DNA from: a virus
Strand: one strand, 5' to 3'
Length of the DNA: 64,000 bases
IMG/VR virus record: IMGVR_UViG_3300014720_000015
Coordinates: 62,001-126,000 of that record
Position 1 is the first letter of the stretch, and every line of letters starts with the position of its first letter. A program made the position numbers and the translations under genes. Of the stretch, positions 15,399-59,623 are shown in pieces. The notes beneath the pieces were generated by a model. That model made no database searches and had not been told where the DNA came from. It was given only the letters and a program-made list of their open reading frames with translations.

Positions 15399-15421
15399 CA
15401 CAAATAACATAATTAGAAAGA

Positions 15422-15447
15422 AACCTCACCGATTGGTGAGGTTTTTT
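15422..15447 (+). terminator. Intrinsic terminator
   Basis: AACCTCACC-gatt-GGTGAGGTT followed by a T run; nine perfect base pairs. It closes the lysis gene group. Confidence 0.9.
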
Positions 15448-15488
15448 TGTTTATTATTCATATTTACAGATATAATTATAATTGTATC

Positions 15489-27911: not shown

Positions 27912-28590
27912 TAACGATTTTAGCAATTATGCAATAAAGCACTTGAACATTAACCCGATGCAACTGCATTATTGGGAAAAACTTCAAGATAAACTATATG
28001 GACCTAATGCTTCATTAACACCATATATTACCGAAGAATCTGATAGAAGAGCCGTTCAGATGGATATCTTCTCCAGAATGCAAATGGAGAGAATTATCTG
28101 GGTTGCTGGCGTTGTAAATGATATGATGTCAACAATTGTTCAAGCACAGCTAATGTGGTTGGACACACAAGGTAACGATGATATTGTAATTCATTGTGAC
28201 ACCCCTGGTGGAAGCGTCAAGAGTGGGCTATCTATGGTCGATGTTATGAATTATGTTAGTTCTGATATTGTAACAATAAATACTGGAATGGCAGCATCGA
28301 TGGGTTCAGTTTTATTAGGTGCTGGAACAAAGGGGAAACGATATAGTTTACCACATTCAAAAGTAATGCTACACCAAGTTTCTGGAGGTATGTCAGGTGA
28401 GATACAGTCAATGAAAATCTCTTATATGGAAGCTGAAAAATATAATGAAGAGTTGTTTAGAATGCTCGGTGAATACTGTGATAAAGACCCAGAACAAGTT
28501 AAAAAAGATGCTGACCGAGATTTGTGGCTTACATCAGGTGAAGCCCTTGAATATGGTATTATTGATTCAATTATTAAGAATAAACAATAA
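27901..28590 (+). CDS. ClpP-like serine protease, second copy
   Basis: A 229-residue ClpP family protein: HCDTPGGSVKSG, catalytic Ser in GMAASMGSVLLGAGTKGKR, catalytic His in VMLHQVSGG and Asp in DRDLWLTSGEALEYGIID. This copy is closer to bacterial ClpP than the one at 7.3 kb. The two could form a mixed ring or act on different targets. It overlaps the preceding gene and its stop overlaps the next start. Confidence 0.85.
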   Translation: MTYNNDFSNYAIKHLNINPMQLHYWEKLQDKLYGPNASLTPYITEESDRRAVQMDIFSRMQMERIIWVAGVVNDMMSTIVQAQLMWLDTQGNDDIVIHCDTPGGSVKSGLSMVDVMNYVSSDIVTINTGMAASMGSVLLGAGTKGKRYSLPHSKVMLHQVSGGMSGEIQSMKISYMEAEKYNEELFRMLGEYCDKDPEQVKKDADRDLWLTSGEALEYGIIDSIIKNKQ

Positions 28591-28775
28591 TGTATATTAG
28601 CATAGCTGAAAAGTTATATAAAAAGGTTAATCCACATTCAAAAATGGATGTGCCGAGTAGTATTTATGTAACGACTGAAAAATGGTTTAAAGAATGGTTG
28701 GTAACAAAACCAACAGTTTTTAATGAAGAGGCGTTTTTTGTTTGGTGCATTAAAAATAAATCAGTATATTTATAA
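28590..28775 (+). CDS. Small hypothetical protein upstream of tmRNA
   Basis: A 61-residue protein of unknown function. Its ATG overlaps the ClpP-like stop. It ends 6 nt before the mature 5' end of tmRNA, so the tmRNA promoter must lie inside it or the two are co-transcribed; TATATTTAT lies at its 3' end. Confidence 0.5.
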   Translation: MYISIAEKLYKKVNPHSKMDVPSSIYVTTEKWFKEWLVTKPTVFNEEAFFVWCIKNKSVYL

Positions 28776-28781
28776 ATGAAT

Positions 28782-29150
28782 GGGTGTGACTGGATTTGAT
28801 TGCATGATGTTCTTTGATATAAGGAAGCACTGCGACTCAGGTTATAGCAGTACAAAATTTACTTGAGAATTATAAAAGGCGAAGATTTCGTTAATTATGA
28901 AAGATTCTTTGCTACTGAAGCAGAAGCTTTAGTGTAAGGGATGTTTGCACCAACAGCATAATAGGTGCCGAGTTAAGACAGCTTAACAAAACCTTTTTAG
29001 TTTATTGAGTTTTAAGGTCAATAAAATTTAATAACGGGTTTTCAAATTCCTGTAAAGATTTGATATTTCGTCAGATTAGAAAATGTGACTAAGCTTGTAG
29101 AAAGTATTATTGATGCGTGTAAGACGAGAGTTCGAATCTCTCCACATCCA
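28782..29150 (+). ncRNA. ssrA: tmRNA (ssrA)
   Basis: A 369-nt transfer-messenger RNA. The tRNA-like domain pairs GGGTGTG (28782) with CACATCC (29143-29149), and has a T arm GAGAG-TTCGAAT-CTCTC. GACTAAGC-TTGTAG before it is the conserved 3' region. The resume frame starts GGC GAA at 28878 and encodes a 19-residue tag, GEDFVNYERFFATEAEALV, ending at TAA 28937. Host-type Bacteroidota tags are shorter and end in LAA, so this tag is unusual. CCA is not encoded. A bidirectional terminator follows. Confidence 0.95.
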
Positions 29151-29168
29151 CACTGAACTTTTGTTCTT

Positions 29169-29221
29169 AAAAAATATGTCATGGTAAAATTATTTCAATG
29201 TAGTACCATGACATATTTTTT
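29169..29221. terminator. Bidirectional intrinsic terminator
   Basis: AAAAAATATGTCATGGTA and its complement TACCATGACATATTTTTT around a 17-nt loop. It ends tmRNA on the + strand and could end the tiny minus-strand ORF on the other. Confidence 0.85.
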
Positions 29222-29223
29222 AA

Positions 29224-29268
29224 TTATTTGCTTGGTTTTGGTTTTGGTTTACATCCACATCCTTTCAT
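29224..29268 (-). CDS. Putative 14-residue microprotein
   Basis: A minus-strand mini-ORF encoding MKGCGCKPKPKPSK. It lies between a terminator and a late-type motif (TATATTTATATATAAATA on its 5' side), so it has the parts of a gene. The CxC plus KP repeat composition is non-random. Too short to prove as coding. Confidence 0.3.
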   Translation of the reverse strand: MKGCGCKPKPKPSK

Positions 29269-29341
29269 TTTAGTTGATTTTTTGTAAATTGTTATTTATA
29301 TATAAATATAGGAAAATCAAAGGTTTTGTAAATAATTAAAA

Positions 29342-29551
29342 ATGTTCTTAAAAAAAAGGTATAATATAATCACTCGTAATTGGGATGTTATAACCAGATT
29401 AAGGTTATCTGAAACACCGAGAACCAACGAAATGGTTTATATTGAGAATACGGGTAAATACTATGTTGTTTTGAATGTGATACATCGGGAAACATTCTTA
29501 TTGAATACCACGTATATTGTTGTTGAAGAATTAAATGAGAGAAAAAAGTAA
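29342..29551 (+). CDS. Small basic hypothetical protein
   Basis: A 69-residue beta-rich basic protein of unknown function. TATTTATATATAAATATAGG (late-type motif) lies ~50 nt upstream and is shared in the other orientation by the minus-strand mini-ORF. Confidence 0.5.
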   Translation: MFLKKRYNIITRNWDVITRLRLSETPRTNEMVYIENTGKYYVVLNVIHRETFLLNTTYIVVEELNERKK

Positions 29552-29582
29552 TTTTTGATTTGCATATATTGAATATTTAATG

Positions 29583-29590
29583 TATATTTG
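29583..29590 (+). promoter_or_regulatory. -7 promoter element before RNA element and initiator tRNA
   Basis: TATATTTG with TTTGCATATATTG about 30 nt upstream. It would drive the structured RNA at 29618 and the initiator-type tRNA. Confidence 0.7.
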
Positions 29591-29617
29591 TATCAGAAAT
29601 TAAGAAACAGAAATTAA

Positions 29618-29674
29618 AGAGAGATTTCAGCAAAATTTAGACAATACAATTGAGATGTAAAAAAAGTCTCTCTG
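29618..29674 (+). ncRNA. Recurrent 'TTCAGCAAA' structured RNA element, copy 1
   Basis: AGAGAGA...TCTCTCT closes a hairpin whose 5' side is followed by TTTCAGCAAAATTT. Similar elements (stem, then TTCAGCAAAT, then closing stem) lie at 46298, 52509 and 58571, each just after a TATATTTG promoter. Function unknown. Confidence 0.45.
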
Positions 29675-29687
29675 TTTATTATTATAT

Positions 29688-29775
29688 CGCGGGAATGAAG
29701 GCTGGTAGTGATGCCTCGGTAGTCTCATAAGCTACCAACCGTAAAGGTGTGAAAGTGCGATTCTTTCTCCCGCAA
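29688..29775 (+). tRNA. Initiator-type tRNA-Met (CAT) with long variable arm
   Basis: Acceptor CGCGGGA/TCCCGCA with a C1-A72 mismatch, the hallmark of initiator tRNA. Anticodon loop CTCATAA on a 6-bp stem GGTAGT/GCTACC. T arm GAAAG-TGCGATT-CTTTC. The variable region contains a small hairpin (ACC-GTAAA-GGT), unusual for an initiator. CCA not encoded. Confidence 0.75.
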
Positions 29776-29809
29776 CAACGGTATTGATAAACCCAGTAAT
29801 AACAGAAAT

Positions 29810-30064
29810 ATGGCAAAGAGAAAGAAACCTATGACTAAAGACGAACATAACAAAGAAGCTCAAAGATTATTGGGTTTATCTGATGTTATGCATTCGTTGC
29901 CTACTGCTTGGTATTTTGATTGGAATGGAAGTGAGCCTCCAAGAATATTTGATTCCGATGGTAGGTGTGTATGTGTTTTAAGTACAGGCACATTTAGCGG
30001 TGCTTACGAAACTGAACAGATTATTGCAAATGCAAAACGATTGCTTTATGGCAATGATGCATAA
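29810..30064 (+). CDS. Cassette-like small ORF 1
   Basis: An 84-residue protein, unknown function (MAKRKKPMTKDEHNKEAQ at its start). It is the first of about seven small genes with a less AT-rich composition, separated by imperfect hairpins flanked by TAAC/GTTA, as in integron gene cassettes. Confidence 0.55.
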   Translation: MAKRKKPMTKDEHNKEAQRLLGLSDVMHSLPTAWYFDWNGSEPPRIFDSDGRCVCVLSTGTFSGAYETEQIIANAKRLLYGNDA

Positions 30065-30109
30065 CGTTAAAGCATTGGTGTCTGTTTGGGCATCAAGGCT
30101 TAAAAGTTC
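30061..30109 (+). repeat. attC-like imperfect hairpin 1
   Basis: AACGTTAAAGCATTGGTG and CATCAAGGCTTAAAAGTT are imperfect inverted repeats (about 14 of 18 pairs), directly after the stop of the first cassette-like ORF. Confidence 0.45.
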
Positions 30110-30132
30110 AAATTAACAACTAAAAGATATAT

Positions 30133-30339
30133 ATGCAACAAGACCAGATTACTTCCGTCAGCCAAAATAGCACCAATGCAGTGTTAAATGAAGGGCGAAA
30201 ATATTGGTATGTAGTTGAAACTACTGCTTGTGTTTTGTGTGGTAGAGAAAAAAATAACCGTTATCGTGTTTATGAAGAACCAAAGCCTGAACAAAAGCGC
30301 ATTTGGAAAGATGATGCCTGTGGCGAGCATTTCATGTAG
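30133..30339 (+). CDS. Cassette-like small ORF 2, CxxC protein
   Basis: A 68-residue protein with TACVLCGREKN (CxxC) and CGEHF near the end, a possible zinc site. Unknown function. Followed by the clearest attC-like hairpin. Confidence 0.5.
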   Translation: MQQDQITSVSQNSTNAVLNEGRKYWYVVETTACVLCGREKNNRYRVYEEPKPEQKRIWKDDACGEHFM

Positions 30340-30346
30340 CTTTTCA

Positions 30347-30441
30347 TTTAACGGTTTGGCTAAGAAGCGTAGCCATGCAATCACGCTTCAAAATTGGCAC
30401 TACACTTTATTGGCTATGCTTTTTAGCCGTTGTTATGTGCC
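30347..30441 (+). repeat. attC-like imperfect hairpin 2
   Basis: GGCTAAGAAGCGTAGCC and GGCTATGCTTTTTAGCC pair at 15 of 17 positions. The outer ends are TTTAACGG and CCGTTGTTATG. This is the geometry of an integron attC site. GTTATGTGCC at its end (30432) is inverted as GGCACATAAC at the end of the next cassette. Confidence 0.6.
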
Positions 30442-30456
30442 GTTATTATTCGCAAG

Positions 30457-30663
30457 ATGAAAGCAGAAACGAAAAAAATATTAAAAGAACAAGGCAAACT
30501 TGACCTTTATACAGATGAACGATTTGAGCAAGTTAAAGCTGTAATGAAACACGGAATGACCAAAGACGCTTGGTTAAAGAATTATCTATCCCTAGACTCA
30601 CTAAACAAGGCTCAATGGTGTGCAGACCACTTGGTCAAGTTTGTTGAAGGTGGTTATTTATAA
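30457..30663 (+). CDS. Cassette-like small ORF 3
   Basis: A 68-residue helical protein (MKAETKKILKEQGKLDLYTD start). Unknown function. The cassette is bounded by inverted GTTATGTGCC (30432) and GGCACATAAC (30665). Confidence 0.55.
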   Translation: MKAETKKILKEQGKLDLYTDERFEQVKAVMKHGMTKDAWLKNYLSLDSLNKAQWCADHLVKFVEGGYL

Positions 30664-30664
30664 T

Positions 30665-30719
30665 GGCACATAACGTCTGATGATAAACAATCGTTTTAAT
30701 GTTGTTTATCATTTGTTAT
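30665..30719 (+). repeat. attC-like imperfect hairpin 3
   Basis: ATGATAAACAA and TTGTTTATCAT are perfect inverted repeats, flanked by CATAACG and TTGTTATA. Directly follows the third cassette ORF. Confidence 0.6.
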
Positions 30720-30758
30720 ATTTAGTTGAAATTTTTTTTACTTTTAAAAAAAGAAGTT

Positions 30759-30932
30759 ATGACAGAAATCAATAAATCAAAACTCTACTTAATTCTAACT
30801 GTGATGGTTGGATTTACACTTGTCAATATAATTAAAGATAATAATTGGGTAGGTTATTTACTCTCATTAGTAGTATTTCCACTGATAACTTGGGGTTTGA
30901 TAGAACTTCTTTTTAAATATAAATCAAAATAA
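30759..30932 (+). CDS. Cassette-like small membrane protein
   Basis: A 57-residue protein with two hydrophobic helices (LYLILTVMVGFTLVNII and YLLSLVVFPLITWGLIELLF). Unknown function. Confidence 0.5.
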   Translation: MTEINKSKLYLILTVMVGFTLVNIIKDNNWVGYLLSLVVFPLITWGLIELLFKYKSK

Positions 30933-31014
30933 ATTTTAATTGAATATAATGGGAGTGGCTATGTGTAGTGCCGACCTTGAATAAATTACTACACTAACTA
31001 AAAAGATTAAAGCA

Positions 31015-31257
31015 ATGAGTAAAAAGAAAAAGAACAAAAAAGAGAATAAGGCATTACATATAGGTGGTGTTAGCGGTAGTTCTATTCCAGAACCACCCAA
31101 ACCACCACTAAATAGAGTTATTCGAGAAGGTGTAGGGCATTTTTGTACAAATTGCGGTAGTACAATGCCCAGAAGTGGATTTTTAATGTTGTTTGGAGAA
31201 AGATACTGTGATAACAACAAATGCCCAAATAGTAAACCAGTAAAGAATTACCGCTAA
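31015..31257 (+). CDS. Cassette-like zinc-ribbon-type protein
   Basis: An 80-residue protein with a basic, Pro-rich N-terminus and a C-terminal FCTNCGSTMPRSG...YCDNNKCPN four-Cys site. Unknown function. Its stop is followed by GCTAACGG, an attC-like end. Confidence 0.5.
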   Translation: MSKKKKNKKENKALHIGGVSGSSIPEPPKPPLNRVIREGVGHFCTNCGSTMPRSGFLMLFGERYCDNNKCPNSKPVKNYR

Positions 31258-31284
31258 CGGTTCACAAATAAAGAAAGTAGCGAT

Positions 31285-31527
31285 ATGAGAGACGAAATAG
31301 ATAAAATACTCGGTGAATTAGTTAGAAAGGAAATAAGCGAAGCCCAAGCGATTGATAAGCTATATTCTTTATTTGATGTTAGCACACGTAAATCTTTGGA
31401 AAGTAAAACCAAGATTATCACAGATATAAACCAATGGAGCGAAATACTATTGGCTTACAGACACAAAATAAGAGAGCGACCACTTTGGGCAATGATAGCA
31501 GACATAAACAACAGAACAACGGATTAA
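31285..31527 (+). CDS. Cassette-like small ORF
   Basis: An 80-residue helical protein (RDEIDKILGELVRKEISEAQ) of unknown function, followed by the longest attC-like hairpin. Confidence 0.5.
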   Translation: MRDEIDKILGELVRKEISEAQAIDKLYSLFDVSTRKSLESKTKIITDINQWSEILLAYRHKIRERPLWAMIADINNRTTD

Positions 31528-31535
31528 TTATGTGT

Positions 31536-31670
31536 GCTAACGTATTTGTATATGAAACGTGGCTGATAAGAACACGGAACTTGTCGAAGCGTACTGAACT
31601 AAATTAAATGCCGTGCATGGTCAAATAAGCCGTACAACAGCCATGTTTTATATACTTTGTTGTGCGCAGT
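31536..31670 (+). repeat. attC-like imperfect hairpin 4
   Basis: GTATATGAAACGTGGCTG and CAGCCATGTTTTATATAC pair at 15 of 18 positions around a ~72-nt centre. GTTGTGCGCA at its end is inverted as TGCGCACAAC (31936) after the next ORF, so each cassette is bounded by matching ends. Confidence 0.6.
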
Positions 31671-31676
31671 TATATT

Positions 31677-31934
31677 ATGGAGTTTAAAAAACTTACATCA
31701 GAAAATTTGCCTGAACCAAACAAATTGATTTGGATTAAACGAAAAAAAGGAAGCATATACTTAGGGTATAGAGAAGACAAACCTATCGCAACTAATGAAG
31801 ACGCAAGTAGAGATTGTTTTTGGTATGCAAACCCAAGCCATTCAATGTTAATGGCGGATGAAAGACAGTTGCGATTCAGGTATAATTTTTCAGACGTTAC
31901 AGTTGATTCATGGGCAGAGGTTGATTTACCTTAA
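31677..31934 (+). CDS. Cassette-like small ORF, last
   Basis: An 85-residue protein (MEFKKLTSENLPEPNKLIWI) resembling small cassette-type or restriction-associated ORFs, but no family can be named. Bounded by GTTGTGCGCA and TGCGCACAAC. Confidence 0.55.
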   Translation: MEFKKLTSENLPEPNKLIWIKRKKGSIYLGYREDKPIATNEDASRDCFWYANPSHSMLMADERQLRFRYNFSDVTVDSWAEVDLP

Positions 31935-32115
31935 TTGCGCACAACTAGAATATATAAACAATTACAATAAATCAAGTTCAAAATGAATGAAAAGGGCTGT
32001 TCAACTTTAAAGATTTGTGAAAAGAAATTTAATTATCTAAACTATTCAGAGAAAACTAAAATAACTTTTGATATACAAAAAAAATTCTGTATATTTGCAC
32101 AATAATTAAAAAAAA

Positions 32116-32745
32116 ATGATTATAGGTATAAATGGCACCATAGGTGCTGGTAAGGATTTTTTTGCTGAAACACTGGCTGAGTTTAGTTCAAAACCAGTTG
32201 AAAGACATGCGTTTGCTGATAAATTAAGGTTGATTACTGAACAGTTGACTGGTTATGATATGACCATGACCCATGAACCTAACAAACCCTTCTATAATCC
32301 AGTTTATAACTATACACAAGATGATAAAAATGTATATTTGGATATGTGGGGTAAAACCGTTGGTCAAATATTACAACAACTCGGTACTGAAGCTTTACGA
32401 GATAATTTTGATACTGACGTTTGGGTAAAGTCATTATTCGCTTCTGTTGGCAAAGAAGCTTTGGCTAAAGACCATATATTAGTGATACCAGATGTTAGAT
32501 TCCCCAATGAAGCTGATTACATTCTAAGTCAAGGCGGTCTCTTAATTAAAATTACAGGTGACCCCATGGGTGTCAGAGCCAAAAGTAATAGGGATTTAAA
32601 TCACCCATCTGAAACAGCCTTAAATAATTATGATAAATTTACCGATATTATTGAAAATGATATTGCCAATGTTGAAGTGTTCAACGAAAAAGTTAGAGCA
32701 TTTATGTTTAAACATGGGGTTTCCGTAGCCAGTTGCTACGCATAG
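32116..32745 (+). CDS. Deoxynucleoside monophosphate kinase (T4 gp1-like)
   Basis: A 209-residue kinase. P-loop GINGTIGAGKDFFAE at residues 4-18; VGQILQQLGTEALRDNF and VIPDVRFPNEADYI are the typical gp1-type motifs. It phosphorylates dNMPs for phage DNA synthesis. TATATTTG lies upstream at 32090. A terminator follows. Confidence 0.9.
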   Translation: MIIGINGTIGAGKDFFAETLAEFSSKPVERHAFADKLRLITEQLTGYDMTMTHEPNKPFYNPVYNYTQDDKNVYLDMWGKTVGQILQQLGTEALRDNFDTDVWVKSLFASVGKEALAKDHILVIPDVRFPNEADYILSQGGLLIKITGDPMGVRAKSNRDLNHPSETALNNYDKFTDIIENDIANVEVFNEKVRAFMFKHGVSVASCYA

Positions 32746-32773
32746 ATAGAAAAAAACTATTCATAGTTTTTTC

Positions 32774-32805
32774 AAGGTCAAACCATGAGGTTTGGCCTTT
32801 TTTTT
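32774..32805 (+). terminator. Intrinsic terminator
   Basis: AAGGTCAAACC-atga-GGTTTGGCCTT with a T run. Confidence 0.9.
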
Positions 32806-32840
32806 GTTATATTTGTGAACTATTTAATTAAAAAGAACTG

Positions 32841-34019
32841 ATGTTTAAAAAATTAATAAAAGAACAATTACTATTGGAAGCGGAAGAAGTCCGTATACCC
32901 TTTAAAATGGACATACCTGAAGATATTAGGAAGATACAGAAAGTATTCAAAGCTAATGGTAAAGAATTATATTTGGTCGGTGGTTCTGTTAGGGATGCTT
33001 TATTGGGTAAACCTATAAAGGATTATGATTTAGCAACTGAAGCCAAACCTGATGAGGTTATTAAAATGCTTAAAGGAAAACCATTTATAACAAATATAAT
33101 AGAAACTGGTAAATCTTTTGGTGTTATAAACGCATTAACTGACAATGATGAGTATGAGATTGCCACTTTTAGGTCTGAATCGGGATACGAAGATTCTAGA
33201 AGACCTTCAAGTGTTGAATTCACTGATATAGCAACAGATGTTGCCCGAAGAGATTTAACCGTTAACGCATTATTCTATGATTTGGATACCAATGAGGTTG
33301 TTGACCTTGTTGGTGGAATTGAAGACCTTAAAAAAGGTATTATTCGAACGGTTGGTGACCCATCTGAACGATTTGAAGAGGACAAGCTAAGAGTGTTAAG
33401 AGCTATTAGATTTGCCGCAAGATTCGGTAGTGAGGTTGATGAGAAGATAGACCAATTACTAAGTAAAGGTATTGATTTATCAGCAATTTCTGGTGAGCGC
33501 ATTAGAGATGAATTCATCAAAGGAATCAAGACATCCAAATCAACTGTTAATTTCTTATCGATGTTGGATAAATATGATTTGTTCAATGCTATATTTCCTA
33601 ACGTTAAAATCAATAAGAATTTCATAGAGAGTAATGACTCAGAGTTGGTAATTGCCAGCTTATTGTTACCACTTATAACTATAAGTGACATATCTCAAAT
33701 CGAAAAGAAATTAAATGCGTTGAAATACTCAACACAAGAAATACGTGATATAACAGCTTTAATGTTATTGACTCAATTTGAACCAGATGAAATTGTACCA
33801 ATGAAAAAGAAACTACAACTAAGTAGTTTATCTGATGAACAGATTAAAACTTTTGCTTCACTAATGAACTTGGATGCTAATCTAATTGACAAATTATTGC
33901 AATTCAAGTTATCGGTAAGTGGGCAAGATGTTATGAAACAATTCAATATCAAAGGACCAGAGGTCGGTAAAGTAATCAATCAAATTGAGGTCGAAAAATT
34001 CAAAAAAACACTCAATTAA
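32841..34019 (+). CDS. CCA tRNA nucleotidyltransferase, possible capsid-targeting N-terminus
   Basis: A 392-residue class II nucleotidyltransferase. LYLVGGSVRDALLGKPIKDY has the GG-S-VRD motif, followed by D-Y-D catalytic residues, ARRDLTVNALFYD and FEEDKLRVLRAIRFAARF. It should add CCA to tRNA 3' ends, which fits because none of the phage tRNAs encodes CCA. About 22 residues precede the domain; MFKKLIKEQLLLE-AEEV is basic and ends in L-L-E, like a prohead-protease-cut packaging peptide. So it may be delivered with the DNA. Poly(A) polymerase activity is an alternative. Confidence 0.85.
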   Translation: MFKKLIKEQLLLEAEEVRIPFKMDIPEDIRKIQKVFKANGKELYLVGGSVRDALLGKPIKDYDLATEAKPDEVIKMLKGKPFITNIIETGKSFGVINALTDNDEYEIATFRSESGYEDSRRPSSVEFTDIATDVARRDLTVNALFYDLDTNEVVDLVGGIEDLKKGIIRTVGDPSERFEEDKLRVLRAIRFAARFGSEVDEKIDQLLSKGIDLSAISGERIRDEFIKGIKTSKSTVNFLSMLDKYDLFNAIFPNVKINKNFIESNDSELVIASLLLPLITISDISQIEKKLNALKYSTQEIRDITALMLLTQFEPDEIVPMKKKLQLSSLSDEQIKTFASLMNLDANLIDKLLQFKLSVSGQDVMKQFNIKGPEVGKVINQIEVEKFKKTLN

Positions 34020-35827: not shown

Positions 35828-35914
35828 GGTCTGGTTAGCCCGTAACAGGTTAGCGGAACGGGTTGTGACCCCGTGGTAGAAATACCCCAATCGGTTCGAG
35901 TCCGATACCAGACC
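35828..35914 (+). tRNA. tRNA-His (GTG)
   Basis: G-1 plus acceptor GTCTGGT/ACCAGAC with C73, the His identity pair. Anticodon loop TTGTGAC on ACGGG/CCCGT. T arm ATCGG-TTCGAGT-CCGAT. CCA not encoded. Confidence 0.9.
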
Positions 35915-35938
35915 CAGAATATTATCTTCGGATAATAT

Positions 35939-35949
35939 GTTCTTTGACA
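35939..35949 (+). promoter_or_regulatory. boxA-like antitermination element
   Basis: GTTCTTTGACA preceded by a hairpin ATATTATC-TTCG-GATAATAT. It matches the boxA-like sequence of Bacteroidota rRNA leaders (compare E. coli TGCTCTTTAACA). Copies lie in other RNA operons of this phage. Confidence 0.55.
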
Positions 35950-35965
35950 TATTAATATTAAACAC

Positions 35966-36037
35966 ACAGACATGGTGTAATTGGAAGCATAATTGACTCC
36001 AAATCAATTGGTTAGGGTTCGAGGCCTTATGTCTGTG
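35966..36037 (+). tRNA. tRNA-Trp (CCA)
   Basis: Acceptor ACAGACA/TGTCTGT, G73. Anticodon loop CTCCAAA on ATTGA/TCAAT. D arm GTGT...GCAT. Confidence 0.9.
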
Positions 36038-36049
36038 CAAATAATTTAT

Positions 36050-36137
36050 GGTGAGGCAAGCCAATTGGTGGTGGCCGCTATTTGCTAGGTAGTTAGGAGT
36101 AACCAGTCTCGTAAGGGTTCAACTCCCTTCCTCACCG
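36050..36137 (+). tRNA. tRNA-Ser (GCT)
   Basis: Acceptor GGTGAGG/CCTCACC, G73. Anticodon loop TTGCTAG. Long variable region as expected for Ser. T arm AAGGG-TTCAACT-CCCTT. Confidence 0.85.
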
Positions 36138-36154
36138 CGATAAAATTATATAAT

Positions 36155-36244
36155 GGAGGCGCCCAGTTGACAGAGGTACACCGTCTTGAAAACGGCTAGG
36201 TCAGTGATGAGCTGATGTAAGAGTTGGACTCTCTTCGTCTCCGC
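36155..36244 (+). tRNA. tRNA-Ser (TGA)
   Basis: Acceptor GGAGGCG/CGTCTCC, G73. Anticodon loop CTTGAAA on CCGT/ACGG. Long variable arm. Confidence 0.85.
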
Positions 36245-36252
36245 CATAAATT

Positions 36253-36343
36253 CGACCTGTAGCAGCCAAACCTGATAAGTTTGAGAACTGTAGCTGGTAT
36301 CTTGAGATAACATCAAACATTGGTTCGAATCCAATCAGGTCGA
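36253..36343 (+). tRNA. tRNA-Ile-like (GAT) with non-standard arm order
   Basis: Acceptor CGACCTG/CAGGTCG, A73; T arm ATTGG-TTCGAAT-CCAAT. The anticodon arm CAAAC-CTGATAA-GTTTG starts only 7 nt after the acceptor stem, leaving no room for a D arm. Between the anticodon and T arms there are ~35 nt with a D-loop-like GTAGCTGGTA. The loop CTGATAA is typical of Ile(GAT), and ATT appears in the leader peptide. Confidence 0.65.
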
Positions 36344-36448
36344 CATCAACCATCAATGCCTCTCTTTGAAGCACACTTTTGATATCTGATGAAAACTAGT
36401 TAGTAGTCAGACAGAGTTACAAGATTCTCTAGGGTAAAAATCTTTCTT

Positions 36449-36538
36449 GGTGCGGTACCGATGGAAGCTTATATCTTCTATACTCGTAATGGCATGTTGA
36501 GATAACATCAAATATTGGTTCGAATCCAATCCGCACTA
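36449..36538 (+). tRNA. tRNA-Ile-like (TAT) with non-standard arm order
   Basis: Acceptor GGTGCGG/CCGCACT, A73. Anticodon arm GGAAG-CTTATAT-CTTCT begins 7 nt after the acceptor stem, as in the GAT gene upstream. About 34 nt, including the stem ATGTT-gagat-AACAT, separate it from the T arm. The 3' part TTGAGATAACATCAAA is shared with the GAT gene. ATA is present in the leader. Confidence 0.6.
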
Positions 36539-36552
36539 CATTAAATTAAAAT

Positions 36553-36624
36553 TCTGGTGTAGCTCAGAGGCAGAGCACTTGTCTGTTAAACAAGTGGTCG
36601 TGATATCGTAATTCACCACCAGAG
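36553..36624 (+). tRNA. tRNA-Asn (GTT)
   Basis: Acceptor TCTGGTG/CACCAGA, G73. D arm GCTC-AGAGGCA-GAGC. Anticodon loop CTGTTAA on CTTGT/ACAAG. Confidence 0.9.
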
Positions 36625-36630
36625 CAATCA

Positions 36631-36702
36631 TTGCGAGTCTTAATGGTAAAGAGCCTCCTCTCATAAGGGAAGCCAAATCGGTTCAATTCCGATACTCGCA
36701 AC
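36631..36702 (+). tRNA. tRNA-Met (CAT), elongator or Ile2
   Basis: Acceptor TTGCGAG/CTCGCAA. Anticodon loop CTCATAA. T arm ATCGG-TTCAATT-CCGAT. Met fits three ATG codons in the leader, but a lysidine-type Ile(CAT) cannot be excluded. Confidence 0.85.
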
Positions 36703-36716
36703 GTTAAAATTAAAAT

Positions 36717-36796
36717 GGCGACATAGCCGAGCGTAGCTACGAACTACGTAATCGTAATCGGAGCGGAGGATGTGGGTTCGAATCCCTCTGTCGTCA
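36717..36796 (+). tRNA. tRNA-Arg (ACG)
   Basis: Acceptor GGCGACA/TGTCGTC, A73. Anticodon loop CTACGTA on ACGAA/ATCGT with one mismatch. T arm with TTCGAAT and one mismatch. Decodes CGC in the leader. Confidence 0.75.
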
Positions 36797-36803
36797 CATT
36801 TCT

Positions 36804-36875
36804 GGCACTATGATGTAAATGGAAGCATCTCAATCTTCTAAATTGAGTGTAAAAGTTCGAATCTTTTTAGTGTCA
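36804..36875 (+). tRNA. tRNA-Arg (TCT)
   Basis: Acceptor GGCACTA/TAGTGTC, A73. Anticodon loop CTTCTAA on TCAAT/ATTGA. Decodes AGA in the leader. Last tRNA of operon 1. Confidence 0.9.
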
Positions 36876-36924
36876 CTTTTTTTTTTGATTATTTTTTTGT
36901 ATATTTATTTGTATATTTATTATT

Positions 36925-37161
36925 ATGATGAATCTTTGGGTTATAGTCGGTTTTGGTTTATATTACCTTATCAAAGGGGTGGTATGGGTTATCGTTGATG
37001 TATCATATTTTAAAACGAAATATGATAATCCATTACAACCAGTTTTTAATATTATTTTTTGGCCAATATTCTCAACAAGAAGAACTATAATTCAAATTAC
37101 ATCATGGTTTAAATCCAGAAAAAATGCAAAATCTAAAAGTGAAATTAAAGGAAGGTCTTAA
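36925..37161 (+). CDS. Small membrane protein
   Basis: A 78-residue protein with two hydrophobic stretches (WVIVGFGLYYLIKGVVWVIV and VFNIIFWPIF) and a basic tail. ATATTTAT lies exactly 12 nt before the ATG (ATATTTAT-TATT-ATG). Overlaps the next gene by 38 nt. Confidence 0.55.
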   Translation: MMNLWVIVGFGLYYLIKGVVWVIVDVSYFKTKYDNPLQPVFNIIFWPIFSTRRTIIQITSWFKSRKNAKSKSEIKGRS

Positions 37162-37426
37162 ATTTGGCGGTAATATATATGACTATTTTTCTTTTGAAAA
37201 AGGTGGAAAAAATATCTTAGTCAGTAAGGAAGGTATTCTTGGTCATGACAACCAATTAATTACATGGTCTGATATTGAAGCTTTGAAGAAAATATATGAT
37301 AAAAAAGATATTGCCGAGGGGTGAGGAGATAAAATATTCTTAAACCATGACGATGATGGTTTAAGTGATGACGTTAAAATGTTATTATATTTAAGGTTCC
37401 CAGAGAAATCTAAATTTGAAAAATAA
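37124..37426 (+). pseudogene. Small protein gene with in-frame TGA (broken or read through)
   Basis: The ORF runs 66 codons to TGA at 37322-37324, then continues in the same frame for 33 more codons that look protein-like (GDKIFLNHDDDGLSDDVKML, ending FEK) to TAA at 37424. Either a nonsense mutation truncates the protein to 66 residues, or the TGA (context GGG-TGA-GGA) is read through. Function unknown. Confidence 0.5.
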
Positions 37427-37462
37427 TTTGTATATTTACATTTAAGTGTATATATTTGTGCT

Positions 37463-38365
37463 ATGGAAAAAAATCGTCTAGGATATATGGTAACAAGACC
37501 AGACCAAAAACTCACCATAATGAGAGGAATTTCAGGGTCAGGTAAAAGCACTAGGGCAAAAGAATTGGTCGGGAGCGGTGTAATTCACTCAACTGATGAT
37601 GTAATATCTTCTATGGGTAATTATAATGATATTTTTGCTGATATGATAACCCGTAAAGATTTTTCAAACTTACAAAAGGCGCACCAAACAAATTTAAGAA
37701 ATGCCATTAACTCAATGAAGAATGGTATAACACCAGTCATTATAGATAACACTAATTTAGCGCCATGGGAATCTAAAGCTTATGTCAAAGCCGCATTGGA
37801 AATGGGTTTTGATGATAAGAATATAGAGATAGTGAATGTTGGTACTGGTGGTGCTTCAGCTGAAGAATTAGCGAAAAGGAATACTCATGGTGTCCCATTG
37901 GATAAAATCAAAGCGATGATTGATAAGTATAACGCTAATAAAGACATTACGATTGATGATATTCTTAAAGAAACCAAAAAAGATAAATCCGATAAGGTTT
38001 TGTATTCAGCTGTTGTTTTAGATGAAAAATCCAAAAACGAGCTGTTAGCTAAGTTTGACATACCTGAAGGTTGGAAAACCTTTGCGCATCATATGACGAT
38101 AGTTTTCGGTAAAGGTTTACCAGAAGACATGAAATCTGATTTAGGTAAAACCGTTACATTGACAGTTAAAGAGTTGGGAATTTCTGATATGGCAATAGCC
38201 GTTAAGGTTGATGGATACCCATCAACCAATAACATACCACATATAACAATGGCTGTTAATGTTAACGAGGGTGGAAAACCTGTAATGTCAAATCAAATTA
38301 CAAATTGGAAACCAGTTAAAAATTTCAATATTACTGGTACCGTAACAGAAGTTAAAGCAAATTAA
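37463..38365 (+). CDS. Polynucleotide kinase fused to 2H phosphoesterase-like domain
   Basis: A 300-residue two-domain protein. Residues ~15-175: P-loop kinase of the PNK type, with MRGISGSGKSTRAKEL and VIIDNTNLAPWE. Residues ~185-300: two H-x-T motifs, HHMTIVFGKG and NIPHITMAVN, as in 2H (LigT-like) cyclic phosphodiesterases. The combination is found in tRNA splicing/repair enzymes such as fungal Trl1. It would heal RNA ends (5' phosphorylation, 2',3'-cyclic phosphate opening) for the Rnl1-type ligase at 40.5 kb. TATATTTG-TGCT-ATG precedes it. Confidence 0.85.
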   Translation: MEKNRLGYMVTRPDQKLTIMRGISGSGKSTRAKELVGSGVIHSTDDVISSMGNYNDIFADMITRKDFSNLQKAHQTNLRNAINSMKNGITPVIIDNTNLAPWESKAYVKAALEMGFDDKNIEIVNVGTGGASAEELAKRNTHGVPLDKIKAMIDKYNANKDITIDDILKETKKDKSDKVLYSAVVLDEKSKNELLAKFDIPEGWKTFAHHMTIVFGKGLPEDMKSDLGKTVTLTVKELGISDMAIAVKVDGYPSTNNIPHITMAVNVNEGGKPVMSNQITNWKPVKNFNITGTVTEVKAN

Positions 38366-38375
38366 TTAATTAATA

Positions 38376-38621
38376 ATGTTAGAAAGAATTTTAGAAATGT
38401 ATCCTGACGATACGTTTTTGGTTGCTGATGGTTTTAATGAGGCAATCATTGGTGTTGATGAATCAAGCATGCGATTGATTTATTCTGTCGAAAAATGTAT
38501 AGATATCTTAGTTGAAGATGATGAAATGTTGTTAGAACAAGCAATAGAATACTTTGATTTCAATGTCAGAGGTTCCTATGTTGGTGAGCAAACACCAATT
38601 TTTTGTGAAGATTGTTTTTAA
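38376..38621 (+). CDS. Small acidic hypothetical protein
   Basis: An 81-residue acidic protein with a C-terminal FCEDCF (CxxC). Unknown function. Lies within the RNA-repair gene group, 10 nt after the PNK gene. Confidence 0.55.
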   Translation: MLERILEMYPDDTFLVADGFNEAIIGVDESSMRLIYSVEKCIDILVEDDEMLLEQAIEYFDFNVRGSYVGEQTPIFCEDCF

Positions 38622-38662
38622 TAGTCAAAAATATTTTTATATCTTTGACCAAAATTAATAAT

Positions 38663-39148
38663 ATGACTGAACAGTTAGAAATCGAAAGAAAATATTTACT
38701 AAAATATAATCCACTTAATTTGGGAGAGTTTGATAATCTATTGCAGATAACACAATTATACTTACCAAAGGATGAGAATGGTTATACTGTAAGATACAGA
38801 TATATCACAGACACTAATGACAAAGTAACTTATGTTAAAACGCTTAAAAAATATGTAAGTGATATGGTCTGTGAGGAGATAGAGTGTGAGGTTAACAAAG
38901 AAGAGTATGAATTGGCTGAGAGTAAAGCTGTAAGTCAGATTGTTAAGTTACGTTATGAATTTAAAAATGATGATTTAATTTGGCAAATTGATAATTTTGT
39001 GAATATTAAGATGGTATTGGCTGAGGTTGAATTGCCAAGCGAAAACCACGCATTTCAAATACCAGAGATACTAGAAGAGGCTATTGTAGCTGAAGTAACA
39101 GGCATCAATGGTTTTAGTAATGAAAGTTTAGCAATGTTTTTAGAGTGA
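38663..39148 (+). CDS. CYTH domain phosphohydrolase
   Basis: A 161-residue CYTH protein: LEIERKYLLK gives the ExExK signature at the start, YTVRYRYI and YVKTLKKY give the tunnel basic residues, EEIECEV and LAEVELP the acidic strands. Members hydrolyse triphosphates (thiamine triphosphate, RNA 5'-triphosphate, polyphosphate). In this neighbourhood an RNA 5'-end activity is attractive but unproven. The in-frame upstream ATG at 38612 is not used. Stop overlaps the next start. Confidence 0.85.
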   Translation: MTEQLEIERKYLLKYNPLNLGEFDNLLQITQLYLPKDENGYTVRYRYITDTNDKVTYVKTLKKYVSDMVCEEIECEVNKEEYELAESKAVSQIVKLRYEFKNDDLIWQIDNFVNIKMVLAEVELPSENHAFQIPEILEEAIVAEVTGINGFSNESLAMFLE

Positions 39149-46664: not shown

Positions 46665-46739
46665 GAAGGTGTGGGTGAGTTGGAATTAGCCACATGACTG
46701 CAAATCATGTTTACGTCAGTTCGAATCTGACCATCTTCT
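46665..46739 (+). tRNA. tRNA-Cys (GCA)
   Basis: Acceptor GAAGGTG/CATCTTC, T73. Anticodon loop CTGCAAA on CATGA/TCATG. CCA not encoded. Confidence 0.9.
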
Positions 46740-46746
46740 CAAGTAA

Positions 46747-46818
46747 GCCCCAGTGGTGTAATGGTTAGCGCTCCGTTTTTACATGGCGGGAGAACTGGTT
46801 CGATTCCAGTCTGGGGTA
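46747..46818 (+). tRNA. tRNA-Val (TAC)
   Basis: Acceptor GCCCCAG/CTGGGGT, A73. Anticodon loop TTTACAT on CCGTT/GGCGG (two wobble pairs). T arm ACTGG-TTCGATT-CCAGT. Confidence 0.8.
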
Positions 46819-46827
46819 CAAAAAAAT

Positions 46828-46905
46828 GCGGGTATGCGGAAAGTTTGGTGAAGCCGAGCAGTCTTAGGAACTGCTGATTTGGGGGTTCGACTCCCTCTAC
46901 CCGTA
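46828..46905 (+). tRNA. tRNA-Leu (TAG)
   Basis: Acceptor GCGGGTA/TACCCGT, A73. Anticodon loop CTTAGGA on GCAGT/ACTGC. Variable region of intermediate length. Confidence 0.85.
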
Positions 46906-46930
46906 CAGATAATGAGTTAATAAATTAATT

Positions 46931-47170
46931 ATGCGTGAAATTAAAAAAGTTGCATGGGATAAGTTCATTGAAACAATGGATTATGATTCTGACGTAAACA
47001 ACTTCAAGTATGACTTCAAATACATGACCAAAAACCATGGTAATGCCTTTATAGAATACTGTAAAAGTATGTGGGAAGCGAACGAAGGTATTCAAACAGA
47101 AGAAGAGTTTATGACGATGAACGCTAATATGCCAAAAGGCTTTTTTGATAAGGTAGTTAAGGGGAAGTGA
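46931..47170 (+). CDS. Small protein whose end overlaps a tRNA
   Basis: A 79-residue protein (REIKKVAWDKFIETMDYDSD start) of unknown function lying inside tRNA operon 2. Its last codons and stop (GGGGAAG-TGA) are the first 10 nt of tRNA-Leu(TAA), so processing of that tRNA would cut the mRNA. Confidence 0.6.
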   Translation: MREIKKVAWDKFIETMDYDSDVNNFKYDFKYMTKNHGNAFIEYCKSMWEANEGIQTEEEFMTMNANMPKGFFDKVVKGK

Positions 47171-47238
47171 TGGAAAGCTGGTGAAGCCTCTTTGACTTAA
47201 AATCAAAGGATATACGGGTTCGACTCCCGTCTTCCCTA
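47161..47238 (+). tRNA. tRNA-Leu (TAA)
   Basis: Acceptor GGGGAAG/CTTCCCT, A73. Anticodon loop CTTAAAA on TTTGA/TCAAA. Nearly identical to the next tRNA outside the acceptor and anticodon arms. 5' end overlaps a CDS. Confidence 0.9.
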
Positions 47239-47248
47239 CTAAAAATTT

Positions 47249-47326
47249 GGGCGAGTGATGGAAAGCTGGTGAAGCCTCTTTACCTCAAAAGTAAAGGATA
47301 TACGGGTTCGATTCCCGTCTTGCCCA
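47249..47326 (+). tRNA. tRNA-Leu (CAA)
   Basis: Acceptor GGGCGAG/CTTGCCC, A73. Anticodon loop CTCAAAA on TTTAC/GTAAA. A duplicate of the TAA gene with changed anticodon. Confidence 0.9.
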
Positions 47327-47386
47327 CATTAATTAAATTTTAGTACATTTGTAGAATTACTAAACTATTTATTATAAAGTTCGCAA

Positions 47387-48082: not shown

Positions 48083-48822
48083 GTAAAAAAACCACTGAAT
48101 GGAGAACAATAGTTTTAAGTGACATTCACTTAGGTATTAGAGAATCAAAAGCGGAAGAAGTTGTAAAATTTTTAAATCAAAATAAAGCTGAGACATTAAT
48201 ATTGAATGGCGATATAATCGATGGTTGGGCTTTAAAACGGGGAAGTAAATGGAAGGATAAGCACACCAAGTGCATTAAGAAGTTTTTCAGGTTAGCACAA
48301 AAAGAAAGTGAGGTTTATTGGGTTAGAGGTAACCATGATGACTTTTTAGATGATTTTTTACCGTTTGAGTCAAAAATCAATGGTATAACGGTTTTAAAGG
48401 AAATGGATTATATCGGTGCAAACGGGAACCGCTATTTGATTACACATGGTGACATCTTTGATGTTTTCATAACTAAAATGGGTTGGTTAGCCAAAATAGG
48501 TTCAATAGGTTATGATTTGGCACTATGGTTCAACTATTGGTACAATGAATGGAGAAAGTGGAGAGGTTTGCCGTATTTGTCTGTGAGTAAAATGATTAAA
48601 GATAGTGTTAAGCAAGCAGTTAAATTTGTAACGGATTTTGAAAATTATATAACGTCAGTCGCTAAGAAAAAAGGTTATGATGGTGTTATCTGTGGACATA
48701 TACATCAACCAGAGAAAAAGAACATTAATGATATTGAATATCTGAATAGTGGTGATTGGGTGGAAAACCTTTCTTGTTTGGTTGAAGATTTTGATGGTAA
48801 TTGGAATGTTGTCTACTTCTGA
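48079..48822 (+). CDS. LpxH-like UDP-2,3-diacylglucosamine-type phosphoesterase
   Basis: A 247-residue metallophosphoesterase: VLSDIHLGIRES, LILNGDIIDGWALKRG, WVRGNHDDFLDDFLPF, YLITHGDIFDVF and VICGHIHQPEKK. This is the pattern of the UDP-2,3-diacylglucosamine hydrolase family of lipid A synthesis. Coupled with the glycosyltransferase gene (ATGA), it suggests alteration of the cell envelope, perhaps receptor masking. Confidence 0.75.
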   Translation: MSKKTTEWRTIVLSDIHLGIRESKAEEVVKFLNQNKAETLILNGDIIDGWALKRGSKWKDKHTKCIKKFFRLAQKESEVYWVRGNHDDFLDDFLPFESKINGITVLKEMDYIGANGNRYLITHGDIFDVFITKMGWLAKIGSIGYDLALWFNYWYNEWRKWRGLPYLSVSKMIKDSVKQAVKFVTDFENYITSVAKKKGYDGVICGHIHQPEKKNINDIEYLNSGDWVENLSCLVEDFDGNWNVVYF

Positions 48823-50189: not shown

Positions 50190-50262
50190 GTGGTGGTTAC
50201 CAAGTTGGTCAAGGTGTCGCTCTGAAAAAGCGATAATGTTGGTTCGATTCCAACCCATCACA
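50190..50262 (+). tRNA. tRNA-Phe (GAA)
   Basis: Acceptor GTGGTGG/CCATCAC, A73. Anticodon loop CTGAAAA on TCGCT/AGCGA. T arm GTTGG-TTCGATT-CCAAC. Confidence 0.9.
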
Positions 50263-50268
50263 CAAAAC

Positions 50269-50341
50269 GGTCCGTTCGACAAGTGGTTTAAGTCACCGCT
50301 CTTTCACAGCGGAGTCATGGGTTCAAATCCCATACGGACTA
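50269..50341 (+). tRNA. tRNA-Glu (TTC)
   Basis: Acceptor GGTCCGT/ACGGACT, A73. Anticodon loop CTTTCAC on CCGCT/AGCGG. T arm ATGGG-TTCAAAT-CCCAT. Confidence 0.9.
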
Positions 50342-50395
50342 CTGAAAATATAGAGTTTTAAAGCCTTTTGACAATCTGGAAAGACGGATATTAAC

Positions 50396-50468
50396 GGACG
50401 CGAGGTGTTGTTGGTAACATACGGCCCTGTCACGGCTGAGATTGCGGGTTCAACCCCCGTGGCGTCCG
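50396..50468 (+). tRNA. tRNA-Asp (GTC)
   Basis: Acceptor GGACGC/GCGTCC with a seventh-pair mismatch, G73. Anticodon loop CTGTCAC on CGGCC/GGCTG. T arm GCGGG-TTCAACC-CCCGT. Confidence 0.9.
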
Positions 50469-50493
50469 CCTAGACATATTTTTGGCACTTATT

Positions 50494-50566
50494 GTGGTGT
50501 TAGTTAAGCTGGCTATAATACTGCCCTTGCAAGGCGGAGTCATCGGTTCGAGGCCGATACGCTACA
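50494..50566 (+). tRNA. tRNA-Ala (TGC)
   Basis: Acceptor GTGGTGT/ACGCTAC, A73 (two wobble pairs). Anticodon loop CTTGCAA on CTGCC/GGCGG. T arm ATCGG-TTCGAGG-CCGAT. The usual G3-U70 pair of Ala is present. Confidence 0.9.
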
Positions 50567-50585
50567 CTTTAAAATATTTATTATT

Positions 50586-58995: not shown

Positions 58996-59070
58996 CGGGA
59001 GGTTATGCAGATGGCTATACAACGGTACCTTGGACGTATCGGTTCGTGGGTTCGAATCCCACTCTCCCGA
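58996..59070 (+). tRNA. tRNA-Pro (TGG)
   Basis: Acceptor CGGGAGG/TCTCCCG, A73. Anticodon loop CTTGGAC on GGTAC/GTATC. T arm GTGGG-TTCGAAT-CCCAC. A hairpin ATCCCGACAA/TTGTCGGGAT follows, perhaps for processing. Confidence 0.9.
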
Positions 59071-59107
59071 CATTAATCCCGACAAATTGTCGGGATAATA
59101 ATTAAAT

Positions 59108-59180
59108 TGCCCTGTGGTGTAATTGGGAACACGTCTGTTTTTGAAGCAGAAGAGTCTAGGTTCGAGACCTAGCGGGGCAA
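59108..59180 (+). tRNA. tRNA-Gln (TTG)
   Basis: Acceptor TGCCCTG/CGGGGCA, A73. Anticodon loop TTTTGAA on TCTGT/GCAGA. T arm CTAGG-TTCGAGA-CCTAG. Confidence 0.9.
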
Positions 59181-59256
59181 CTTGACTTTAGAGATAAAGC
59201 GTGATGTCATATTATAGATAACGCACAGGCTCTAATTATAAAAATAATACAAAATA

Positions 59257-59329
59257 GGGGAATCGCCCAGGGTTGGTCGGACGCTCTGTAAAAGCGAACC
59301 GCAATATAGTTCGAGTCTATTGTTCCCCA
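59257..59329 (+). tRNA. tRNA-Tyr (GTA)
   Basis: Acceptor GGGGAAT/GTTCCCC, A73. Anticodon loop CTGTAAA on ACGCT/AGCG. The variable region is shorter than in usual bacterial tRNA-Tyr. Confidence 0.88.
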
Positions 59330-59337
59330 CAATTAAT

Positions 59338-59409
59338 GCACCCATAGTTTAGTTGGGAAAACGGTAGATTTGTAATCTTCAGTCCTCAGTTCAAGCCTGA
59401 GTGGGTGCT
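59338..59409 (+). tRNA. tRNA-Thr (TGT)
   Basis: Acceptor GCACCCA/TGGGTGC, T73. Anticodon loop TTTGTAA. T arm CTCAG-TTCAAGC-CTGAG. Confidence 0.9.
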
Positions 59410-59424
59410 CAGTTGATTTTTTTT

Positions 59425-59495
59425 GCCGCATAGGTGTTACGGCAGCACATCTGACTTCCAATCAGAAGGCGAGAGTTCGACTCTCTCATGCGGCT
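59425..59495 (+). tRNA. tRNA-Gly (TCC)
   Basis: Acceptor GCCGCAT/ATGCGGC, T73. Anticodon loop CTTCCAA on TCTGA/TCAGA. T arm GAGAG-TTCGACT-CTCTC. Confidence 0.9.
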
Positions 59496-59506
59496 CCATT
59501 TTAAAT

Positions 59507-59581
59507 TCCCTCATAGGTTCAATTGGTTTAGACTACTTAACTTTTAATTAAGGGGTGCTGGTTCGAGTCCAGCTGGGGGAA
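59507..59581 (+). tRNA. tRNA-Lys (TTT)
   Basis: Acceptor TCCCTCA/TGGGGGA, A73. Anticodon loop CTTTTAA on CTTAA/TTAAG. T arm GCTGG-TTCGAGT-CCAGC. Last tRNA of operon 4. Confidence 0.9.
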
Positions 59582-59623
59582 CAAAAATTTGTTTATTAAT
59601 AAAATAATTTATATATTTGCTCT

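Follow-up and report, generated by a model that had tools for sequence, protein, structure and literature searches.

A hairpin-cassette array in a phage genome as a probable member of an integron-like system with its own recombinase

The ability of a tyrosine recombinase to recombine single-stranded sites in folded form has been tied in the literature to the extra domain of the integron integrase IntI. This IntI-specific domain is located near the C-terminus and has been named as a feature distinguishing IntI (PMC9024848). The folded recombining strand of attC has extrahelical (bulged) bases along one of its sides, and the α-I2 helix of VchIntIA contacts the DNA around one of them, G20″ (PMC3053210). 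Integrons and CALINs are also known in phages, with attC sites of bacterial type and IntI (Qi et al. 2023, PMC9892861). Here we analyzed a different kind of array, located in a 64,000-nucleotide stretch (the window) that covers positions 62001–126000 of a 162,536-bp IMG/VR virus record. Judged by comparison with related loci, it is likely one array of a phage-encoded integron-like system with its own recombinase and attI-like site. We found no description of such a phage system in the literature searched, which left preprints and most subscription journals outside its scope.

The cassette array and its insertion site

The array spans window positions 29777–31945 and contains seven cassettes, each with one small ORF and one hairpin (Table 1). 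This agrees with the initial annotation, which had counted about seven small-ORF units; the three hairpins and both pairs of cassette ends that it quoted are all present in the window. The array region is flanked by one tRNA-like gene on the left and one dNMP-kinase gene (from 32116) on the right. All cassettes are of the same layout: behind AAC comes one imperfect hairpin, then GTT with a box X, one small ORF, and finally X′ with AAC. The cassette ends are complementary in six of the seven, the exception being C4, whose end has decayed (AAT). The hairpin loop of C4, CGTTTTAAT, is common to many phage cassettes. The ORFs had been described as separated by hairpins; each cassette does have its hairpin, but several ORFs begin within it, so the hairpins are not purely intergenic.

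The cassette pattern is real and beyond chance. In 100 dinucleotide-preserving shuffles of 29776–31960, AAC-hairpin-GTT sites scoring at least 30 occurred at a mean of 0.01 per shuffle and none reached 35; the real array has sites of 43, 40, 32 and 31. The distinct composition first proposed for the array holds in part: the GC content is not distinct (0.348 versus 0.327, z 1.27), leaving a foreign GC signature unsupported, but the array stands out in its dinucleotide signature (as extreme in 3.2% of windows), which supports the proposal weakly. The cassette ORFs of the window gave no significant match to Pfam and only marginal matches to PHROG.

Table 1. Features of the array region (window coordinates; cassette ends are given as left/right)
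Feature	Positions	Strand	Hairpin site	ORF	Ends and remarks
tRNA-like gene	29690–29773	+			cloverleaf, CAU in anticodon loop; 3′ end marks the left insertion border
Whole inserted element	29777–32107	+			array, attI-like site and recombinase remnant; right border approximate
Cassette C1	29777–30065	+	29777–29887	ORF1 29810–30064, 84 aa, start within hairpin	GTTATGCAT/ATGCATAAC; left AAC 29777–29779
Cassette C2	30066–30352	+	30063–30185	ORF2 30133–30339, 68 aa	GTTAAATG/CATTTAAC
Cassette C3	30353–30674	+	30350–30434, score 43	ORF3 30457–30663, 68 aa	GTTATGTGCC/GGCACATAAC
Cassette C4	30675–30950	+	30672–30717	ORF4 30759–30932, 57 aa	GTTATATTTAG/ATATAAT (decayed)
Cassette C5	30951–31258	+	~30951–31071, two G.T pairs	ORF5 31015–31257, 80 aa, start within hairpin	GTTAGCGGTA/TACCGCTAAC
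Cassette C6	31259–31541	+	31256–31380	ORF6 31285–31527, 80 aa, start within hairpin	GTTAGCACAC/GTGTGCTAAC
Cassette C7	31542–31945	+	31539–31661, score 40	ORF7 31677–31934, 85 aa	GTTGTGCGCA/TGCGCACAAC
attI-like site	31932–31956	+			AATTGCGCACAAC followed by TAGAATATATA; part from AAC onward 31943–31956
Tyrosine-recombinase remnant	31983–32060	+			N-terminal 26 codons

No integrase had been visible to the initial annotation. However, immediately downstream of the array lies the truncated start of one tyrosine-recombinase gene, which is 80.8% identical over 26 aa to the recombinase of another phage locus, L038 (tblastn, E 2.5e-8); the open frame extends to 32105 with no further similarity. As read from this truncated gene, the recombinase of the window copy is dead and the copy is a remnant. 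Because of the truncation, the array in the window would be fixed unless another recombinase acts in trans.

The related phage L170 carries the empty site. It aligns to window positions 28564–29776 and then to 32108–34004, lacking the ~2.3 kb in between, and its junction reads CTCCCGCAAC followed by TATTAAAA. The dNMP kinase of L170 is 89% identical at the amino acid level; another phage, L171, likewise has no array. The tRNA-like gene at the left border is conserved in L170 and has four arms by RNA fold; neither ARAGORN nor Rfam called it. By these alignments, the whole element is a recent insertion behind the tRNA-like gene in this lineage, and since L170 has the empty site and L171 has no array, it probably entered after the split from L170. 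Loss of the element from both L170 and L171 is a less simple alternative.

A search for sites scoring at least 32 across the 162.5-kb record identified two further arrays, at 36960–38940 (G000:C1, L005) and 140960–143530 (L008), both outside the window. The only strong AAC-hairpin-GTT site of the record outside the arrays is one terminator-like hairpin at window positions 15406–15451 (AAAGAAACCTCACC...GGTGAGGTTTTTTT). In all three arrays, the last AAC is directly followed by one attI-like TAG(N)ATATATA sequence. The array at 37.0–38.9 kb has no recombinase and begins behind a protein gene. Immediately behind the third array (141.0–143.5 kb), and oriented as the array is, lies the gene of one tyrosine recombinase, which is internally deleted and 199 aa long. 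This deleted copy is the sole PF00589 gene found in the record, which is a fragment. As the recombinase in the window is a remnant and the other copy is internally deleted, this phage may no longer shuffle its cassettes.

The record and window also encode 20 tRNA genes, one tmRNA, ClpP, one DnaJ-like protein and the dNMP kinase. The tRNA genes form four clusters (35829–36876, 46665–47327, 50190–50567 and 58996–59582). The tmRNA gene, directly upstream of the array region (28782–29153), was identified by RF00023 (58.6 bits, E 1.6e-21) and was not listed by ARAGORN.

The recombinase, the attI-like site and the hairpins in other phages

Relatives of the recombinase are present in at least 166 IMG/VR contigs; the alignment query gave 282. 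Among 68 non-redundant loci, 66 have one attI-like site preceding the recombinase gene, ~40–110 bp from the matched start. The site consists of one variable part ending in AAC, followed directly by TATTATATATA; the consensus of 66 distinct sites is ATTGnnnATAAC followed by TATTATATATA. At least 12 of the 14 positions match in 55 loci (random expectation, 0.45%). Strong hairpins lie within 2.5 kb upstream of the recombinase in 41 of the 45 loci with enough sequence; on the downstream side, over the same distance, they occur in 1 of 43. Thirteen phage records of 64–465 kb each have the array-adjacent gene as their sole PF00589 gene (split in two in one record), and in none of the 13 does any gene exceed the curated cut-off of the IntI model TIGR02249.

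Among 80 loci from bacterial genomes, only L090, on a 150-kb contig binned as Methylophaga (PAJP01000008.1), shows both attI and hairpins. L091 (JACMLU010000006.1, Flavobacterium bin) encodes a recombinase within the phage clade; its upstream sequence is cut off. Both contigs carry the clade recombinase together with genes of phage protein families, and may be misbinned phage contigs. The 462-kb uncultured phage LR756500.1 (L001) contains one long array of the same hairpin cassettes at 401118–407203; its partial recombinase match is distant from the array, at 48602–48781. On plasmid NZ_CP104336.1, tet(X3) is immediately preceded by a recombinase (L258, 6043–6708) that shares 49.6% identity with the phage enzymes. 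This tet(X3)-linked recombinase is carried on Acinetobacter baumannii plasmids and is a possible sign of transfer from Bacteroidota. Judging by the relatives of the recombinase and by promoter-like sequences, the phages would be expected to infect Bacteroidota.

The intact phage recombinases are 263–269 aa in size (~265 aa). Seven intact proteins scored 131–161 bits against TIGR02249 (cut-off 265), 162–183 bits against NF040815, recomb_XerA_Arch (cut-off 220), and 114–153 bits against the XerC/XerD-type models TIGR02224 and TIGR02225 (cut-off ~330), below the threshold in every case. In all proteins, TIGR02249 positions from ~180–207 to 254 are unmatched, i.e. the IntI extra domain is missing. 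The closest solved structures are the XerA-type 4a8e (E 4e-48) and IntI4, 2a3v (E 3.5e-38), of which residues 180–259 find no counterpart in the phage recombinase. Foldseek with the AlphaFold model (mean pLDDT 83, pTM 0.61) also ranked 4a8e first, followed by IntI4; we hold the predicted domain arrangement with modest confidence. In the tree, the phage-array enzymes form one clade with L090 and L091 on a long branch (support 100/100), apart from the Bacteroidota Xer-like enzymes and from IntI1, which is represented by one long row, its sequence matching annotated intI1 genes at 100%.

The cassettes are strongly polar. Among the cassette ORFs, 186 read toward attI and only 2 away from it, with 26 undecided. 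At the same threshold, 211 strong hairpins were found on the coding strand versus 1 on the complement. With both strands scored alike, 96% of 134 stems have G.T at the pair located 15 nt before GTT; G.T pairs also occur at 10 nt (46%) and 12 nt (19%) before GTT, and the remaining stem positions are mostly 85–99% Watson-Crick. The stems appear bulge-free, as seen by a finder that scores ungapped stems only and to which bulges are not directly visible. The fixed, strand-defining G.T mark may play the part of the extrahelical bases of attC without bulges. Since the α-I2 helix of VchIntIA contacts DNA around extrahelical G20″, the missing extra domain and the missing bulges are coherent with each other.

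These features bear on the possibility that the array is a CALIN, in which standard attC cassettes of bacterial origin would be moved in trans by IntI of the host and the adjacent recombinase would be unrelated. Phage CALINs do exist, IntI1 recombined five of the six sites assayed (Qi et al. 2023, PMC9892861), and the boxes here fit the AAC...GTT pattern. However, a phage recombinase adjoins the array and a conserved attI is present in nearly every locus, IntI is missing from the 13 phage records at the curated cut-off, the stems appear bulge-free, and the ORFs are inverted. We therefore regard this explanation as improbable. Action of host enzymes in trans on the array is possible.

Mobility and content of the cassettes

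Comparison of loci established the cassette as the unit of exchange and AAC as its exact border. The analysis covered 218 chained cassettes. Complementarity over 6 nt between the ends of a cassette was present in 94 of 177 adjacent strong sites, compared to 2 of 237 for the two boxes within one hairpin site and 14 of 874 among sites that are not adjacent. The complementary ends suggest that the units were once circles. The same cassette units recur in L015, L037 and L038, mostly with 99.6–100% identity, in different orders: A-B′-C-D-attI in L038, E-F-G-H-B-C-D-attI in L037, and A-D-E-F-G-H-B in L015, where B′ is 94% identical to B. The recombinase N-termini of L015 and L038 clearly differ. L024 and L084 have 315 bp in common at 100% identity, with different neighbours and with borders at AAC, and one cassette that is internal in L015 abuts attI in L050; thus, the hairpin travels with the ORF 3′ of it. 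The C5 cassette has homologues within hairpin cassettes of unrelated contigs, and not just in related phages devoid of hairpins: the one in L181 is 84% identical, cassette-sized, with intact AAC ends and a different following hairpin, and others are present in L182 and L183. As the contigs are metagenomic, some rearrangements could be assembly artefacts, yet they recur in independent contigs.

The recent insertion of the entire element at the tRNA-like gene might suggest that the recombinase integrates the element behind tRNA-like or other sites only, the cassettes spreading by another route. We consider this rather more doubtful than a CALIN: the attI-like site is found at the array end and not at both ends of the element, cassettes individually abut attI, and the array at 37 kb begins behind a protein gene. 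Homologous recombination between shared hairpins, with no site-specific step, could draw on the near identity of some hairpins between cassettes, e.g. GATGATAAACAATCGTTTTAATG. It would leave the complementary cassette ends unexplained, however, and the borders lie at AAC even where the flanking hairpins differ (L024/L084) or attI replaces the hairpin (L015/L050), making it very improbable.

Several ORFs start within the hairpin, and the right arm with the GTT box is translated as one leader peptide, for example LLGLSDV and ALHIGGVSG here and, elsewhere among phages, LNISDV. The bodies of homologous ORFs can be joined to different hairpins and leaders, as is the case for ORF5 and its counterpart in L025 (9130–9381). 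Starts within hairpins may, and probably do, help translation initiation, and the hairpins may have this or another RNA role in addition. If the hairpins served only as terminators, processing signals or translation leaders set between small phage genes of the ordinary kind, this would account for the better folding of the coding strand and the translated right arms. However, the complementary boxes are located beyond the hairpin and pair with each other over the gene between them, and the mobility of the units, with exact AAC borders and with C5 in other surroundings in L181, largely refutes this least credible explanation of all.

The 214 cassette proteins form 174 clusters, of which 156 contain a single member. 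Few of the 115 representatives surveyed had matches; these include DNA methyltransferases (about four), one restriction-alleviation protein of the Lar type, one RNA ligase and one exonuclease. This content is no more than suggestive of a counter-defence role, the matches being too few to prove it.

Proposed mechanism and comparison with known systems

We propose that the ~265-aa XerA-like recombinase encoded right after the array would be the acting enzyme and would recombine the attC-like hairpin sites with one attI-like site. The coding strand would fold during replication or entry; this strand is proposed as the substrate because its hairpins are stable with G.T wobbles, which become C.A mismatches on the other strand. 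The recombinase would then act on the folded coding strand and join hairpin and attI at AAC. Use of attI as the insertion site is suggested by the cassette borders and the reordered shared cassettes; new cassettes would be added beside the recombinase gene, and existing ones could be lost or reordered. That the system works like an integron is indicated by the attI-like site, the hairpins upstream, and identical cassettes reordered and joined exactly at AAC.

More broadly, we lean toward the view that phages own a class of integron, with a small recombinase lacking the IntI extra domain and with folded coding-strand hairpins that carry a fixed G.T. On this view, the recombination of hairpin cassettes would have emerged, or been retained, outside the IntI family, and the arrays would be a shuffling store, common to large phages, of small, mostly uncharacterised, perhaps counter-defence genes. 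Such a widespread phage system, which follows the cassette logic of integrons but has no extra domain, makes the requirements of hairpin recombination and the origin of integrons testable. It also provides a route by which large phages could rapidly exchange small accessory genes. Tools based on IntI and attC models may miss such arrays; the attI-like site and the recombinase together provide a simple DNA signature to find hundreds of uncharacterised phage genes.

Like integrons (IntI, attI and attC, including sedentary chromosomal ones), the phage system has arrays of single-ORF cassettes, imperfect hairpin sites of variable sequence with AAC and GTT boxes, complementary cassette ends, and tandem mobile cassettes that are shared and reordered. 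One attI lies at the array end beside the tyrosine recombinase gene, which, like intI, has its transcription directed away from the array, and from attI outward the layout, attI/GTT...AAC-hairpin/GTT..., is that of an integron. The integron-like reading of the initial annotation thus stands for architecture and behaviour; it does not extend to an IntI integron with standard attC sites. Different from integrons, the phage recombinase is under the IntI cut-off and lacks the extra domain, the hairpins of the coding strand carry fixed G.T wobble(s) and appear to lack extrahelical bases, the cassette ORFs read toward attI instead of away from it, and the attI has its own consensus. The IntI score, the missing domain, the absent bulges and the ORF polarity rule out a canonical integron.

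Compared to the arrays of Qi et al. 2023 (PMC9892861), those described here are likewise located in phage genomes, which in that study are partly virulent, and likewise carry DNA methyltransferases. In that study, whose attC sites were identified by HattCI/IntegronFinder, IntI-type integrons occur in temperate phages and integrase-less arrays in virulent ones, whereas here a dedicated phage recombinase adjoins the array in most loci. By sequence and fold, the phage recombinase is best matched by the XerA/XerC/XerD-type enzymes (NF040815; PDB 4a8e and 5hxy); different from these, it falls under the family cut-off and is linked to cassette arrays and one attI-like site.
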